Shown piece by piece: positions 4,523 through 22,112 of a stretch of 22,112 nucleotides of DNA (positions are counted from its first letter, which is position 1; every line of letters begins with the position of its first letter). Source of the DNA: a virus; the IMG/VR virus record IMGVR_UViG_3300032032_000030, positions 1 through 22,112 of that record; one strand, written 5' to 3'. Below the pieces are notes generated by a model. The model searched no databases and was not told the DNA's origin. It saw only the letters and a list, made by a program, of their open reading frames with translations. The position numbers and the translations under genes are program-made.

Positions 4523-4689
4523 CCCGGGGTGCTTTGGTCACGACCCAAACACAAATTCCAAATACGCCTGCGCTCCCAAGCGCAGCTCCCGGCCCCGGGC
4601 TTTCTTCTTTTCTTGCAATGACCCGGGCAGCCTTAACCCCGCTGCCTGGGGCATTCTTTAAACCCATTCAGAAAGTGAAACATGAATGA
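4519..4689 (+). CDS. Small Pro/Ala-rich ORF, 56 aa
   Basis: It starts with ATG immediately after the TGA of the preceding gene and ends with TGA overlapping the first codons of the methyltransferase, so it fills the gap exactly. The product (MARGALVTTQTQIPNTPALP, then SAAPGPGLSSFLAMTRAALT, tail KPIQKVKHE) is low in complexity and has no known domain. The KPIQKV tail is encoded by repeat copy D. It could be a real coupled peptide or an open stretch that only carries translation into the methyltransferase. Evidence is positional only. Confidence 0.4.
   Translation: MARGALVTTQTQIPNTPALPSAAPGPGLSSFLAMTRAALTPLPGAFFKPIQKVKHE
4664..4679 (+). repeat. ATTCAGAAAG element, copy D
   Basis: CCATTCAGAAAGTGAA ends three bases before the methyltransferase ATG at 4682 and is the partner of the inverted copy at 4507-4522. 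Its AGAAAGTGA end may be the ribosome-binding region. Confidence 0.6.
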
Positions 4690-5200
4690 AAACACCTATG
4701 AGCTGCGATCAATGGATCTGTTCACCGGGCTGGGCGGCAGCCTCATCGCAGGATCAATGCTGGGATGGCGGCCCGTCTGCCTCGTTGAAATCGAACCCTT
4801 TGCGCAAAGAATCCTCATCCAAAGAATGCAAGATGGCAGCCTGCCCCCCACCCCCATCTGGCCCGATGCCGGAACCTTTGACGCAAAGCCCTGGGCTGGC
4901 TCAGTGGATATCCTTGTTTGCGGCCCACCCTGCCAGGGGTTCTCAGTTGCCGGGAAAGGGCTTGGCCAAGCAGATCCCAGAAACCAAATCCCAAACGTAC
5001 TGCGCATCCTACGGGATCTGGAATGCCCTAGACTCTACCTGGAAAACTCAGCAAACCTTGTTTCCTTTGACTATTTCGGCCAGATCCTCGGAGAGCTGGC
5101 AGAACTCGGGTTCGATGCTCGATGGTCAACTTTATCGGCGGCAGCCTGTGGAGCCAATCATAAGCGCAACAGGCTCTGGCTCTATGCTTGGAAAAGATAA
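4682..5200 (+). CDS. DNA cytosine-C5 methyltransferase, N-terminal part of a frameshifted gene
   Basis: 172 aa before an early stop. It carries the catalytic half of a C5-methyltransferase: motif I DLFTGLGG (residues 12-19, AdoMet binding), motif IV CGPPCQGFS with catalytic Cys84, motif VI ENS (121-123) and a motif VIII-like KRNRLWL (161-167). The frame ends with a premature TAA at 5198-5200, directly after GGAAAAG. The target-recognition region and motifs IX-X continue in the +1 frame (5184-5669). The whole 4682-5669 span is one base longer than a 328-codon protein, so removing one A from the AAAA at 5192-5195 would restore it. An orphan phage methyltransferase would protect phage DNA from host restriction. 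The N-terminal piece alone should be inactive. Confidence 0.85.
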   Translation: MNENTYELRSMDLFTGLGGSLIAGSMLGWRPVCLVEIEPFAQRILIQRMQDGSLPPTPIWPDAGTFDAKPWAGSVDILVCGPPCQGFSVAGKGLGQADPRNQIPNVLRILRDLECPRLYLENSANLVSFDYFGQILGELAELGFDARWSTLSAAACGANHKRNRLWLYAWKR

Positions 5201-5669
5201 CTGGCCCACGCCCACTGCTAGAAGCCCCGGAGATTGCGCTGCTGAAAGAAGAAGAAGAGCACCCAGCCTGGAATCTATAGTAATGATGCAAACCTGGCCC
5301 ACGCCCCAGGCCAATGAGGATGCAGCAGGCACCCCGGCTGGCAAGATGCAGAAAATGCTGGGCAATCACCCTGCAATCAGGGGCACCACGCCAGCTGAAT
5401 GGCAAAAGGGTGCCTTGAACCCTGCCTGGGTTTGCTGGCTCATGGGCTGGCCTTTGGGCTGGGATAGTTTGGAGCCTATGCCAGCCACCAGCCTGGCAGA
5501 TCATGCTGAAAAAACGGCTGCTGGCAGCTGGTGGCAGGATGAACCACCCATCCCCCGTATTGATAAAAATATTCCTAATCGTGCTGCCCGGCTCAAGGGC
5601 CTGGGCAATGGCATGGTTCCACTTTGTTTTGTTCACGCTTTTAATGGTTTAGCATATGAAAATATATAG
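5184..5669 (+). pseudogene. C-terminal part of the split cytosine methyltransferase
   Basis: This frame continues the methyltransferase as DNWPTPTARSPGD, then a second WPTPQANEDAAG, a phage-type variable region, and motif X as RLKGLGNGMVP near the end. The repeated WPTP segments and GNGMVP are typical of phage Dcm-like C-termini. The first in-frame ATG is at 5184 (161 aa if started there), without a ribosome-binding site. It is expected only if ribosomes shift +1 or the frameshift is an assembly error. Its end overlaps the start of the 77-aa gene by 14 bases, which suggests the C-terminal part is or was translated. Confidence 0.7.
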
Positions 5670-15826: not shown

Positions 15827-16024
15827 TTACCTCTTTTCTGGTCCGGGTTCTGCTGCGTTTTCGGTGTCGGGTTTCACGGCTGCCGCTTCCTTTTTGCCGG
15901 AAGCTGGCAGCGCCTGGCCTATTTCCACCAAGCGCTGCCCGACTGCCTTTGAAACTTCAATGATATCCCCGACACAATGGGTGCCTTCCTCCCTGCGCCA
16001 GTTAACCAGAAGTTTTATTTTCAT
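15827..16024 (-). CDS. Small protein, paralogue B of a tandem pair
   Basis: 65 aa, MKIKLLVNWRREEGTHCVGD, then IIEVSKAVGQRLVEIGQALP and a disordered Ala/Glu/Pro tail. Its first 40 residues align with the adjacent gene 16024-16206: the same MKIKLL start, GD-I-I/D-V-S element and AGQA/GQA turn. It looks like a small SH3-like beta domain seen in several phages between capsid and connector genes. Possibly a head decoration or accessory protein. Start overlaps the upstream stop (TAATG). Confidence 0.65.
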   Translation of the reverse strand: MKIKLLVNWRREEGTHCVGDIIEVSKAVGQRLVEIGQALPASGKKEAAAVKPDTENAAEPGPEKR

Positions 16025-16206
16025 TACTCAGCCTTCTTCTTGGGTTTAGAAGTAGGGGCAGCGCCCTTAGCGCTGCCCCCCTTAACTGCTACGGCCTGCC
16101 CAGCTGCGATTAGGCTTTTGGCCTCATCGCCCGAAACGTCAATGACATCTCCAGCCTTCTGGCAAACCGTTGGCCCTGCTCTTCCACAAAGTAATTTAAT
16201 CTTCAT
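16024..16206 (-). CDS. Small protein, paralogue A of a tandem pair
   Basis: 60 aa, MKIKLLCGRAGPTVCQKAGD, then VIDVSGDEAKSLIAAGQAVA and a Lys/Ala-rich tail (KPKKKAE). It is similar to the next gene over the first ~40 residues, indicating a tandem duplication. Cys7 and Cys15 could pair or bind metal. It directly follows the major capsid gene (3-base gap), a place where small capsid-decoration or linker proteins are found; the role is unproven. Confidence 0.65.
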   Translation of the reverse strand: MKIKLLCGRAGPTVCQKAGDVIDVSGDEAKSLIAAGQAVAVKGGSAKGAAPTSKPKKKAE

Positions 16207-16209
16207 GGA

Positions 16210-17514
16210 TTAGGCCATAGTGATGAATTTGATGGGGTTAGTACCTGCATTCAGCAAATCACCATCATGGCGGCTGAACGCAACAAAGCCCTGCTGATCA
16301 TAATCAGCATATCTTTCAACCAGCCTGCGCAGCCTGAGAGATGCCACGTCCCTGATCTTGTACAGGTTGAACTGCCCAAAGAGAATTGGCTTAGTTCCGG
16401 TGGCAATGTCAGCGCAGTCCTGGTTGATAACCACAGCCCGGCCATATAGCCGATCTGGGATGCCAGCCTGCATTCCTGATTGCCACAGGAACTGCCCATC
16501 TGAATCAACGAGCTTGCGCACAGCTGCAACACTCGAATCATTCATCATAAACACCGATGAATCAGAATCCCTATAGGCCGGATCAACACCGTGGAAAAGA
16601 TCAATGATTTCAGCTGCTGTTATAGCTGTGGCACTGGCTGCCGTAAAAGCAGAAGTGGAAGCTGTAACAACGCCATTGGGCTGGCTGGAGCCTGTCCCGG
16701 TGGTGAAGTGCGTATTCAGGATACGTGCAACACGTTCACCCAGGAGAGAACCCAGAACCTGTGCCAGATTGAAAGCACTGTCCTGCATCAACTCTTCTGA
16801 AACCCTCACCAGCTTGCTGGTGTACTTGTAAGCATTCAGGGTGACTGACCCAAAGACCACATCCTGCTCGCTCACCTCGGTGTTTTCGGCAAGAATGGCA
16901 CCTGCATTGCTGGTGTCATTCACCGTCGGCCATGGCAAGTCATTCCCGGAATCTGTCCTGATAACAGAACTTACCTGCCGCATACCGCCAAACGCCAGCA
17001 GCGCCCGTTCCAGCTCGAACACAAAGCCCTCGGGAATCGTGTAACCGCCTGCACTGTCGGTGGTGCTTTGCGCTCTTAATTCCCGCCTGATGGTGTCATA
17101 GTTGGCCCGGCTTAACTTGGCTTCATAGTATTCCTTTGCCGGGTTAACATTACATTTCCGGCACGCCATCTGGTGGCGCTCTTCCAGATCCATGCCAAGC
17201 TGCTGCCTGGCCCATCCTTGCAGCGCATCATTTCTGTCCTCTTCACTGGGCAGAATTTCCCTCACCTTTTCTGGGGCATTTTCCCTGAACAGCTGCCGGG
17301 TTTCGGCTTTCTCTTCCAGCTGCTTTTCAAGTTCCTCTGTACGCTCTGTAAGATCAATACTTCTGCTTACTCTGTCGTAATCGCCATTACAAGCAGACCA
17401 ATTGGTTTCATCTTCTGAACTCCATTTATGCTCAGAATCATTTGCCAGGTTCCGCAGCTCTTCAAGCTTCTTGAAAATCTCAAAGCGCTGTTCTTTAAGT
17501 GCTTTAATGCTCAT
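16210..17514 (-). CDS. Major capsid protein, HK97 fold
   Basis: 434 aa from the ATG at 17512-17514, chosen over an upstream in-frame GTG because GGAGG lies eight bases before it. The first ~110 residues are a charged coiled-coil delta (scaffold-like) domain (ALKEQRFEIFKKLEELRNLA, TERTEELEKQLEEKAETRQL) that the protease would remove. The HK97-fold body follows from about 145 (GGYTIPEGFVFELERALL, then LPWPTVNDTSNAGAILAE and VSEQDVVFGSVTLNAYKYTS, LVRVSEELMQDS), ending HDGDLLNAGTNPIKFITMA. It is preceded by its own promoter and an RNA-like segment, unlike the other late genes. Confidence 0.95.
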   Translation of the reverse strand: MSIKALKEQRFEIFKKLEELRNLANDSEHKWSSEDETNWSACNGDYDRVSRSIDLTERTEELEKQLEEKAETRQLFRENAPEKVREILPSEEDRNDALQGWARQQLGMDLEERHQMACRKCNVNPAKEYYEAKLSRANYDTIRRELRAQSTTDSAGGYTIPEGFVFELERALLAFGGMRQVSSVIRTDSGNDLPWPTVNDTSNAGAILAENTEVSEQDVVFGSVTLNAYKYTSKLVRVSEELMQDSAFNLAQVLGSLLGERVARILNTHFTTGTGSSQPNGVVTASTSAFTAASATAITAAEIIDLFHGVDPAYRDSDSSVFMMNDSSVAAVRKLVDSDGQFLWQSGMQAGIPDRLYGRAVVINQDCADIATGTKPILFGQFNLYKIRDVASLRLRRLVERYADYDQQGFVAFSRHDGDLLNAGTNPIKFITMA

Positions 17515-17539
17515 GTGTTTTTCCTCCAGGCTGCCCACG

Positions 17540-17580
17540 AAAAAGAGCCGCCAACTAGTGATTAGTTTGCGGCCCTTTTT
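17540..17580 (-). terminator. Terminator-like hairpin between protease and capsid genes
   Basis: A long imperfect stem: AAAAAG (17540-17545) pairs with CTTTTT (17575-17580), an A-C mismatch follows, then GCCGC (17547-17551) pairs with GCGGC (17569-17573), and an inner AACTA (17553-17557) pairs with TAGTT (17563-17567) round a GTGAT loop. On the minus strand it ends in TTTTT, typical of an intrinsic terminator, just 26 bases before the capsid ATG. A second 6-bp hairpin (CCAGGT/ACCTGG, 17581-17596) lies next to it. Confidence 0.7.
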
Positions 17581-17647
17581 CCAGGTTTGGACCTGGCAAG
17601 GATTCGCACCCTGGGCATTAGAGCCTGGGCTTGGGTTCTTGATTAAC
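17540..17647 (-). ncRNA. Candidate small RNA, tRNA-like, between promoter and terminator
   Basis: A consensus promoter (17654-17681) and the terminator hairpin (17540-17580) would define an RNA of about 105 bases with no ORF. Its middle contains a T-arm-like element: CAGGG, loop TGCGAAT, CCTTG (about 17600-17616), and a D-arm-like GTTAATCAAGAAC upstream near 17640-17650. However the loop has G where tRNAs have T/pseudouridine, no GG is present in the D-like loop, and no acceptor or 5-bp anticodon stem can be drawn. It may be a decayed tRNA or a tRNA-like or regulatory RNA. Confidence 0.35.
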
Positions 17648-17653
17648 TACCGG

Positions 17654-17681
17654 ATTATAACTTTAGGGGTTTTTCTGTCAA
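17654..17681 (-). promoter_or_regulatory. Consensus sigma70 promoter upstream of the capsid gene
   Basis: Perfect TTGACA (-35, 17676-17681) and perfect TATAAT (-10, 17654-17659) with a 16-bp spacer on the minus strand. It is the best promoter in the window and points to the capsid gene through the RNA-like segment. Start site predicted near 17647. Confidence 0.75.
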
Positions 17682-17706
17682 GTGCCGCCCCTGGTTGCCC
17701 TGTAAG

Positions 17707-17726
17707 CGCCTGCCTTTTGGCAGGTG
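17707..17726 (-). other. Hairpin after the protease stop
   Basis: CCTGCC (17709-17714), TTTT loop, GGCAGG (17719-17724), extended by two more pairs to about eight. It lies four bases after the protease stop on the minus strand. It is not followed by a T run, so it is more likely a pause, RNA-stabilising or rho-dependent element than a strong terminator. Confidence 0.45.
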
Positions 17727-17729
17727 TAT

Positions 17730-18401
17730 TTACTCAGGGTGCCCTGCTTGCGGCTCTTCAGCGCCTTCTGTGGGCTTCTCATCGGGGTTTTCTTGCAACA
17801 TTTCAGCTGTAATTGCGTCGAAACGGTCATTTACCAGCTTTTTATGCTTTTCGGCTTCATGGTCTGAAAGGCTTTCCTTTGCCCCGGCCAGATCCCGGCT
17901 TTTCACAGTGCTGGCATCATAGGCTGGGAAGGTAACAGGCCCCACATCAAAGAGCTGCACCCCTGAAATGGTGCGCACCTGGGTGCCTTCCTCATCTGTC
18001 CATTCTTCCTCTGTCACTTTGAATGAAAAGCTGCTGCCTGTGAGATCCCCCCGGCTGATCATCTCTTTTACATCCCGGGCAATGCTGGTATTCCCCAGGT
18101 TGATCCTGTAATGCAGCCCCTTGCCATCTTCACGCAGTTGCAGGGTGCCAGCTGAAACACGGCCCAGCAGCTTATCAGGTTCATGGTTGAACAGCGCCCG
18201 GGCATCATCACGTTCTGTAATGGCCCTGGCAAACGCCCCAGGGGCTATACGTTCCCGGGCACCTTCCCACAGGCCAAATTCTGTACCGCCTCCAGGCTGC
18301 CCATCATAAAACACGGCTGCATAACCTGAAATGTCACCGTTGGCATCCTGCCTGATTTCACAATCGGCCACGGCTGGTTGATATCTTCTCTCAGCTTCCA
18401 T
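17730..18401 (-). CDS. Prohead maturation protease, HK97/S78 family
   Basis: 223 aa. The catalytic layout of HK97-type proteases is visible: an SGYAAVFYDGQ strand, IAPGAFARAI with a helix, His73 in LFNHEPDKLLGR, then KEMISRGDLTGSSFSFKV with the likely nucleophile Ser123 or Ser124. It processes the capsid delta domain during maturation. The C-terminal 40 residues are acidic and disordered and may be cleaved off. Its ATG overlaps the portal end by 11 bases. Confidence 0.93.
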   Translation of the reverse strand: MEAERRYQPAVADCEIRQDANGDISGYAAVFYDGQPGGGTEFGLWEGARERIAPGAFARAITERDDARALFNHEPDKLLGRVSAGTLQLREDGKGLHYRINLGNTSIARDVKEMISRGDLTGSSFSFKVTEEEWTDEEGTQVRTISGVQLFDVGPVTFPAYDASTVKSRDLAGAKESLSDHEAEKHKKLVNDRFDAITAEMLQENPDEKPTEGAEEPQAGHPE

Positions 18402-20004: not shown

Positions 20005-21612
20005 TTATACAAAGGAAAGCCCACCTGCGCTGTAAACGCTCTTGGTGGGTTCTGTTCTAACATTGGCCCGGCCCAGTGCCATAACAAGCGCCACCAGGCC
20101 ATCGATTTTTTCCTGTGATTTCTTTTTAGACAATTTCAGATTGCCTGCTGCATCCTGTTCGACTGTCACGTGCCCGGCCATCCACCGCAACACAGGGCAG
20201 CCCCCATGGTTCAGCTCTTTTGAGTAGACTATTCTTTCAAGCTCTTTGGTGGGTGCGCTCATAGATGCAAAGCCTTGCCCGAACATCACCACCTCAAACC
20301 CATCGCCTTGCAGCTGGGTGGTGATCTGGGCTGCATTCCATCTATCAATGGCTATTTCCTGAATGTTGTAGGTTTCGTTCAGCTCGTTGATGCTCTCTCG
20401 GATTACATCATAATCTATTACGTCCCCATCTGTCAGGGTCACTATTCCATCTTTAGCCCAGGTTAAGTAGGGCACCCGGTCGCGCCGTTCCCGTTCCAGG
20501 GCATTTTCCTTGGGAATCCAGAAACGTGATAGAACGCTGAAACCCTCATCGGTGGGAAACACCATTGCCAGGGCTGCTATGTCCCGGGTGCTTGCCAGAT
20601 CCAGGCCACAATAACAGGGCTGCCCCTCCAGCTGTGCCAGATCCCCGGCACAGGCATCCCACTTTTTCAGGGGCATCCACCTGGTATCCTGTTCTGTCCA
20701 AATATTCAGCCTGTAGCGCTTGAAGCTGTTTTCTTTGGTAGGGCTTTCCTGGGCTTCTATACAAGCTGCCTTGATATCATCCCGGCTGATGGTCACTCCC
20801 AGGCTGGGGTTGGCCTGTGCCCACACCTTGGGGCTGGTCCAGTCTGCATCTTCTGGGGCATTCCTGATGAACCCGAAAAATGTTAGATCCTCGGTGGTGC
20901 CATTCAGAACCCTTTCAGCCTGGCTGCGCTGCTCATAGCAGATTGAATGCCTATCAAACCCCGCCGTAGTTATAGAGATTAACAGGGGTTCCCTGCGGCT
21001 GGCCCCCCCATAGCGCAGGCAATCCCACAGCCTGCGATCCGGCTGGGCATGGAGTTCATCGAATATCAAACCATGCCAATTTAGCCCCTCCTGCCTGTGA
21101 TGCTCTGCGCTTAGGGCTTTCAGAAATGAATTGCTGCTGGGGATTGCCAGATGCTTTTGGGAATCCCTTGCCAGCACGTAATCATTCAGCAGGGGTGAGC
21201 CCTGCGCCATCTTGCTGGCCTCCCGGTAAACAATAGCGGCCTGGTCACGGCTGGCAGCTGCACAGAAAACCTGTGCCCCAGGTTCACCATCTGCCGCCAG
21301 AAGATACAGCGCCAGGCCGCTGCATAAAGTGCTCTTGCCGTTCTTTTTGGGCACCTCGATATATGCCGTTCTGAACCTGCGCAGGCCAGTATCTTTATGC
21401 ACCCAACCGAACAAAGGTTTTAACAGCTCTTCTTTCTGCCACTTCATCAGCTCGATTGGCTGCCCGGCCCACTGGCCCATTGTGTGGCGCAGGTATTCTG
21501 AAAAGAAACTAACAACATGCCCGGCCCTTTTGAGATCCATCTTGAATCCGGCCCGGGCTGCTTTCTCATCGGTTTCATTCCTGATGAAACGCTTTGTGGT
21601 CTTATCAACCAT
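20005..21612 (-). CDS. terL: Terminase large subunit
   Basis: 535 aa, an ATP-driven DNA packaging motor and nuclease. Walker A is VPKKNGKSTLCSG (about 88-100), Walker B LIFDELHAQ (182-190) with the coupling ISITTAG (213-219), and the nuclease part begins with the acidic YCGLDLASTRDIAAL (334-348) and AIDRWNAAQI later. These fit HK97/phiE125-type TerL. The ATG at 21610-21612 overlaps the terS stop by 8 bases. Complete in length. Confidence 0.95.
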   Translation of the reverse strand: MVDKTTKRFIRNETDEKAARAGFKMDLKRAGHVVSFFSEYLRHTMGQWAGQPIELMKWQKEELLKPLFGWVHKDTGLRRFRTAYIEVPKKNGKSTLCSGLALYLLAADGEPGAQVFCAAASRDQAAIVYREASKMAQGSPLLNDYVLARDSQKHLAIPSSNSFLKALSAEHHRQEGLNWHGLIFDELHAQPDRRLWDCLRYGGASRREPLLISITTAGFDRHSICYEQRSQAERVLNGTTEDLTFFGFIRNAPEDADWTSPKVWAQANPSLGVTISRDDIKAACIEAQESPTKENSFKRYRLNIWTEQDTRWMPLKKWDACAGDLAQLEGQPCYCGLDLASTRDIAALAMVFPTDEGFSVLSRFWIPKENALERERRDRVPYLTWAKDGIVTLTDGDVIDYDVIRESINELNETYNIQEIAIDRWNAAQITTQLQGDGFEVVMFGQGFASMSAPTKELERIVYSKELNHGGCPVLRWMAGHVTVEQDAAGNLKLSKKKSQEKIDGLVALVMALGRANVRTEPTKSVYSAGGLSFV

Positions 21613-22069
21613 GCTTTTTACGGGTGAATTCCGTCAAAGGGTCCAGGTTTTCGGTTTCCTTCTGCGCCAGTCCCACCCGGCCTGATGGGGTTAATCCAAA
21701 CTGCGATGCAAACTTTATCAGGGCCTGCCTGGCTGCATTGAGTATTGAAACAGCAGGGTGTTGCTGAATGTACCCCGCAGGGGTTTTAAAGGTTTCCCCC
21801 TCTTTGCGCAGGGTTTTTACCGCCTGGTAAAACTGGTTCCATGTTTCACAGTAGGCGCTCAGGGCTGCCCGGTCAACCTGATCGATGATGCCCAGGGCTT
21901 CCAGCTTGGGCACAATGCGTTTCCACTCGGCCTTTCCTTCCCGGCTTAACCAGCTCGGGCAGGGCGGCTTCTTCCCGCTGGCTGGCAGTTCGGTTCTGGT
22001 TCCAATCGAACCTGAACCCAACAGTTTCAGAACTTTGGCAGGTTTTGGAGCTGGACCCCGCTTCCCCAT
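21605..22069 (-). CDS. terS: Terminase small subunit, P27 family
   Basis: 154 aa. MGKRGPAPKPAKVLKLLGSG and PPCPSWLSREGKAEWKRIVP, followed by KLEALGIIDQVDRAALSAYC and LNAARQALIKFASQFGLTPS, are typical of the P27-type terS family that recognises the packaging site. Gly-Pro-Ala-Pro-Lys-Pro-like N-termini are usual here. The ribosome-binding site is an unusual pure-G run on the minus strand, which is one arm of the hairpin at the window end. Confidence 0.92.
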   Translation of the reverse strand: MGKRGPAPKPAKVLKLLGSGSIGTRTELPASGKKPPCPSWLSREGKAEWKRIVPKLEALGIIDQVDRAALSAYCETWNQFYQAVKTLRKEGETFKTPAGYIQQHPAVSILNAARQALIKFASQFGLTPSGRVGLAQKETENLDPLTEFTRKKHG

Positions 22070-22073
22070 TAGA

Positions 22074-22112
22074 CCCCCCCCCCTAAATTTCTCTGAAATT
22101 TGGGGGTGGGGG
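22074..22112 (-). repeat. G/C-run hairpin upstream of terS, possible cos-region element
   Basis: A run of ten C's and AAATTT (22085-22090), loop CTCTG, then AAATTT (22096-22101) and GGGGGTGGGGG. The arms pair over about 16 positions with one bulged T and one mismatch. It lies directly upstream of terS and its base is the last base of the window. A structured element at this spot would suit a terminase-binding or cos-associated site, or a translational regulator that hides the G-run ribosome-binding site. Confidence 0.55.

Follow-up and report, generated by a model that had tools for sequence, protein, structure and literature searches.

Why would a phage that packs its late genes tightly leave a gene-free gap directly in front of the gene for its most abundant protein? 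This question was raised by the window, the whole stretch of DNA analyzed here (22,112 bases; an IMG/VR virus record), a compact siphophage genome, or part of one, of the HK97 type. Its late operon lies on the minus strand, in the order of the terminase small and large subunits, portal, prohead protease (17730..18401; phrog_80, PF04586), and major capsid protein (MCP; 16210..17514; phrog_10, 1e-71; PF05065). As the original prediction had stated, the packed operon is interrupted by a gap of 215 nt; the stop codon of the protease ends at 17730, the ATG of the MCP gene is at 17514, and there is no gene between them. The gap contains, in order, a promoter, a non-coding stretch of about 108 nt, a strong intrinsic terminator, a Shine-Dalgarno sequence, and the MCP start codon.

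The host is probably a marine planctomycete, judging from gene content, since the window gene at 2137-2508 belongs to the DUF1580 family, which is present in 11 of 12 planctomycete genomes versus 0 of 14 control genomes searched, and since most of the best bacterial relatives of the MCP (43-51%) are in planctomycetes. Some other features of the window were noted. An HNH gene (27-344) and the terminase small subunit gene (21605-22069) lie at opposite ends on the same strand, so that the window may represent a near-complete genome that is circularly permuted and was opened between these two genes. The gene for the terminase small subunit has a run of ten G residues directly before its start codon (about 22076-22085, minus strand). 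A DNA methyltransferase frame (4682-5669, plus strand) is apparently split into overlapping frames at 4682-5200 and 4686-5669, which appears to be due to a frameshift or a sequencing error. A class 3 lipase gene (PF01764; 1242-1991, minus strand) is found near phage replication and small genes. Two adjacent small genes after the MCP gene (15827-16206, minus strand) both begin with MKIKLL and look like tandem paralogues.

Promoter, hairpins, and terminator of the gap

The sigma-70 promoter TTGACA-16-TATAAT (17654..17681, minus strand) has its -35 box at 17681-17676 and its -10 box at 17659-17654, separated by a spacer of 16 nt. It is the sole 12/12 match in 12 kb scanned. Among 19 relatives, 11 of the 12 hexamer columns are invariant, versus 41 of 168 other columns and none of the 16 spacer columns (Fisher 5e-6, a value made optimistic by shared ancestry). 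The hexamers have thus been kept while the spacer drifted, and therefore the promoter match, which had been predicted as perfect, exceeds chance. In clade B (see below), the protease stop codon overlaps with the -35 box. A start about 7 nt past the -10 box and an end at the U-run would give a transcript of about 108 nt (17540..17647, minus strand).

The gap region folds more stably than shuffled sequences (z = -4.6). When the 19 distinct leaders were aligned and folded with RNAalifold, exactly three hairpins were obtained, all on the minus strand. Hairpin 1 (17608..17630) has an inner stem GGC/GCC and a hexaloop UCUAAU at 17622-17617, while hairpin 2 (17581..17596) has a stem CCAGG/CCUGG and a hexaloop UCCAAA at 17591-17586; both are supported by RNAalifold, by compensatory pair counts, and by the single-sequence fold. 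The third is the strong terminator-like hairpin with a U5 tail of the original prediction (17540..17578). The pairing of GGGCCGC with GCGGCUC, followed by U5 (17578-17540), is present in both the minimum-energy and the centroid structures, and the stem is kept in relatives with G-C, A-U, and G-U changes. This terminator was not listed by a pattern scan and was revealed by folding. It is followed by a post-terminator leader (17512..17539, minus strand), identified from its Shine-Dalgarno sequence GGAGGA and the MCP start codon.

In the three-hairpin structure, 89.8% of the cells are paired and 10 of 19 pairs have changed on both sides; these cells count sequences, so that inherited changes are counted repeatedly, and several pair types per position are present nonetheless. 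The covariation is 0.376 versus 0.150 after shuffling. The terminated RNA alone also folds into three hairpins in clades A and B, and in clade C hairpin 2 is predicted to have a larger loop. A single fold contains both hairpin 2 and the terminator, which do not overlap, and folding gave no alternative structure in which the terminator is opened.

Is this RNA a tRNA? The original prediction had pointed to D-arm- and T-arm-like elements, and this part did not survive. ARAGORN found 0 tRNA genes in the window and related loci, Rfam gave no match at or above the gathering score, and the fold consists of three hairpins in a row, not a cloverleaf. The GGTGCGAATCC piece sits between hairpins 1 and 2 in the fold, outside any T-arm. 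A tRNA or degenerate tRNA was therefore rejected, given that neither ARAGORN nor Rfam supports it. Neither the window group nor the prophage loci described below match any Rfam family, and no known RNA family fits the element.

Three other ideas were discarded. A leader peptide was rejected; clade A has an 18-aa ORF, but this ORF lacks a Shine-Dalgarno sequence, its ATG is lost in L004, and clades B and C do not have it at all. That the RNA pairs with the MCP start or sequesters the Shine-Dalgarno sequence was tested and is not convincing, since the enrichment is modest and the MCP gene is only fifth among the gene starts of the window. The terminator sequence is shared by 52 matches elsewhere in IMG/VR, and their surroundings are unrelated outside the MCP leaders.

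Leaders of close relatives

Relatives were collected from IMG/VR by MCP searches (68-100% identity). Related phages with neither a conserved structure nor a conserved promoter in the gap would have counted against the original prediction; on this point the finding survived, as the promoter hexamers and the three hairpins are conserved in these relatives, the latter with compensatory changes. The promoter, the hairpins, and the terminator are found in the gap of every MCP relative of at least 68% identity with upstream DNA, except L012, whose gap has an unrelated insert; this contains a U5-tailed hairpin and an element weakly resembling a promoter. The 19 distinct leaders fall into three clades, and the pre-terminator RNA is just 36-51% identical between clades. 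In this window group, the stems vary and the loops are kept. The loop of hairpin 1 is UCUAAU, UCAAAU, UCAAAA, UCCAAC, or UCCAAU, and that of hairpin 2 is UCCAAA, UCCAAU, or CCCAGA.

In four relatives (L017, L018, L042, and L043), there is a recombination junction about 340 nt inside the MCP gene. The protease gene, the RNA, and the first 340 nt or so of the MCP gene derive from one lineage, and the remaining MCP gene derives from another. An earlier idea, in which the RNA itself was the exact point of recombination between MCP alleles, was thereby ruled out. Because the block of protease, RNA, and MCP start was exchanged as one while the rest of the MCP gene was swapped, it could be hypothesized that the partner of the RNA is encoded in this block.

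Hexaloop hairpins in distant lineages

Does the loop pair extend beyond the close group? A consensus YCHARH (UCUAAU, UCCAAY, CCCAGA) for the hexaloops of hairpins 1 and 2 was written from the window-group loops only. In the protease-MCP gaps of planctomycete prophages, which had already been inspected when the rule was written, nine YCHARH hexaloops with a stem of at least 5 pairs were found versus 0.25 expected, and 0 of 300 dinucleotide shuffles reached nine. Their density in these loci is 1.80/kb in the 350 nt before the MCP gene versus 0.07/kb elsewhere in the same loci, counting both strands. Two loci fetched after the rule had been fixed are both positive (L171, and L174 with two hexaloops). 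An independent set of 64 viral leaders has 0.49/kb versus 0.054/kb in the rest of the loci (p = 2.5e-7, again optimistic due to shared ancestry). The enrichment before the MCP gene is thus 9-26-fold over the rest of the same loci in prophages and viral contigs.

The hexaloops of the viral leaders are often paired, 27-49 nt apart; L180, for example, has CCCAGU and UCCAAU within one leader. The stems differ widely between lineages with hexaloops and include G-U pairs, which point to an RNA rather than a DNA element. No YCHARH hairpin with a stem of at least 5 pairs was found in 25 leaders of non-planctomycete relatives. Moreover, 51 of the 64 viral leaders have no YCHARH hexaloop even at a stem of at least 4 pairs, and therefore the element is a trait of only some of these phages and is not needed for the capsid family as such.

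Most of the distant hexaloop leaders lack a promoter and a terminator of their own, and therefore the shared function must be possible within the MCP mRNA. There are leaders with more of the arrangement. L256, a prophage locus from the planctomycete phylum, has the whole of it, with TTGACA-16-TAGAGT, two CCCAGA hexaloops, a hairpin with U7, and the MCP gene in this order, and L211 has TTGACA-15-TATAGG ahead of a hexaloop pair. Wider scans gave little: a covariance model (R1) yielded only weak matches in 98 planctomycete genomes (E 0.003-0.08 per genome), which were taken as chance, and there was no match in the first scan of genome contigs with A1 or in the viral scan with the L151 capsid.

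A distinct conserved non-coding leader of 160-196 nt was found between the protease and MCP genes of some distant relatives: L029 (2786-2981), L031 (1442-1633), L032 (4198-4389), L039, L040, L028, and L030. This leader contains GGGTCGCAATTTTA and, twice, a block resembling TACGCCNATGCGA. It gave no Rfam match at the gathering score, and none was convincing in a permissive search with L029.

Possible functions and known systems

The RNA element is real and conserved, and it is apparently undescribed. The reading I put foremost, with about an even chance of being right, is that the gap is a transcribed MCP leader whose tandem YCHARH hairpins act in cis and are bound by a factor, and that it forms an attenuator in the window lineage. 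The widest-shared part is the hairpin pair before the MCP gene, mostly without a promoter or a terminator, and therefore the simplest common function is one in cis on MCP. The hairpin pair would be the conserved core and the binding site for a putative factor, which might be a phage or planctomycete protein or an RNA, setting MCP expression. In the window lineage, the constitutive promoter in front and the intrinsic terminator behind would make the leader an attenuator. Since they enclose the hairpins there, a short RNA is probably produced continuously, with MCP needing read-through. The host polymerase would start near 17647, mostly stop at 17540, and release the short RNA, and read-through, brought about by action of the factor or by antitermination of the late polymerase, would yield MCP. 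In this scheme, I infer transcription, the efficiency of termination, action in cis, and the existence of the factor. Against this reading, no RNA-binding candidate was recognized among the window proteins tested, and folding gave hairpin 2 together with an intact terminator.

What else might the element be? The original prediction put first a moron encoding only RNA. As a free-standing small RNA gene, it would produce the 108-nt RNA also in lysogens and act in trans, its two or three near-identical loops pairing with or sequestering a partner, like CsrB-type sponges or the EutX decoy RNA. A perfect conserved promoter, an own terminator, and a clean three-hairpin fold of the terminated RNA would suit such a gene, and so would the repeated loops, with a third one (CCCAAA) at the terminator apex in most leaders of clades B and C. 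However, the hexaloop pair stays before the MCP gene in distant phages, mostly without the promoter and terminator, no other copy of the element was found in the window, and no relative was found with an empty site flanked by otherwise similar sequence. I consider this explanation somewhat unlikely, and less likely than a capsid-gene leader. The promoter, the RNA, and the terminator of the proposed moron are there and conserved, while the tRNA-likeness has gone and a core tied to MCP across distant phages fits poorly. The capsid-specific leader, offered at the outset as the alternative, fits better, as the most widely conserved part is the hexaloop hairpin pair shortly before the MCP start.

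It is rather unlikely that the gap is a leader for processive antitermination. Its hairpins would either modify the polymerase themselves (put-like) or flag it for an antiterminator of the phage (N/Q-like); polymerase from this promoter would then read through into the MCP and tail genes, and the most abundant protein would gain an additional late promoter. The terminator lies within about 110 nt of the promoter with conserved hairpins between them, and hairpin 2 is clear of the terminator, which suits a polymerase-borne mechanism; on the other hand, no antiterminator gene was recognized among the window proteins tested, and most planctomycete hexaloop leaders have no promoter or terminator nearby. 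Very improbable is a merely passive structure, with hairpins that insulate or stabilize the 5′ end of an abundant MCP mRNA, loops read by no factor, and a terminator-like hairpin that is one of many before phage capsid genes. Bare terminator-like hairpins with U-runs do occur before the MCP gene in Burkholderia phage KS9, Halomonas phage H4907, Variovorax phage VarioGold, L027, and L054, and are absent in several other named phages examined. However, mere stability does not require loops to be kept while stems change almost completely between lineages, and the conserved promoter would be left unexplained.

The proposed cis-acting leader looks like an undescribed RNA control element for virus shell production. 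To my knowledge, no description exists of a dedicated RNA element that controls the dosage of capsid protein in a tailed dsDNA phage, and literature searches for a capsid-gene RNA leader found nothing relevant. Regulatory RNAs have hardly been studied in planctomycete phages. A precise signature, namely paired YCHARH hexaloops on free stems before the MCP gene, recurs in distant lineages, and therefore a short RNA could serve as bait in a direct search for a binding partner.

How does the element compare with known systems? Like phage morons, it has its own promoter and terminator between two late-operon genes; unlike them, it encodes no protein and its core is tied to the capsid gene across distant phages. 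The coat-protein operators of RNA phages such as MS2 and PP7 are conserved-loop hairpins close to a viral gene start. The window element shares the conserved loop, the position near a viral gene start, and the capsid context, but its two hairpins lie 60-110 nt ahead of the capsid gene in a tailed dsDNA phage, and binding by the capsid protein is hypothetical. The capsid N-terminal region was exchanged together with the RNA and protease. By analogy, tandem YCHARH hexaloops might represent a novel class of RNA operator among tailed dsDNA phages. The capsid precursor, through its N-terminal region, or another phage factor would bind them and so exert feedback on shell production, a possibility that I regard as a long shot.

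In the lambda-type late leader pR'-tR' and the put antitermination RNAs, a constitutive promoter, a short hairpin RNA, and a terminator precede the late genes. The window element has the same order, with promoter, leader RNA, and terminator ahead of the MCP gene, as in an attenuator or antitermination arrangement, for which regulated read-through would be predicted. In contrast to lambda, it lies inside the late operon and not ahead of the whole operon, and no Q- or N-like gene was recognized; the comparison concerns the arrangement of the parts.

The target RNAs of ANTAR-domain proteins (dual-hexaloop leaders such as eut, and the EutX/rli55 decoy RNA) also have tandem hexaloop hairpins beside an intrinsic terminator, with the loop and not the stem conserved. 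These hexaloops need a G at position 4 (PMC8934654), whereas both hairpins of the window have an A there. The P2 hairpin of ANTAR leaders is embedded in the terminator, whereas hairpin 2 of the window and the terminator form together. An ANTAR target was therefore rejected, as G4 is absent and the second hairpin and the terminator are not mutually exclusive; no ANTAR domain was found among the window proteins tested, and a host protein is a possible partner. Among the systems compared, it is nevertheless a dual-hexaloop leader of this kind that the element would, by analogy, most resemble in its working.
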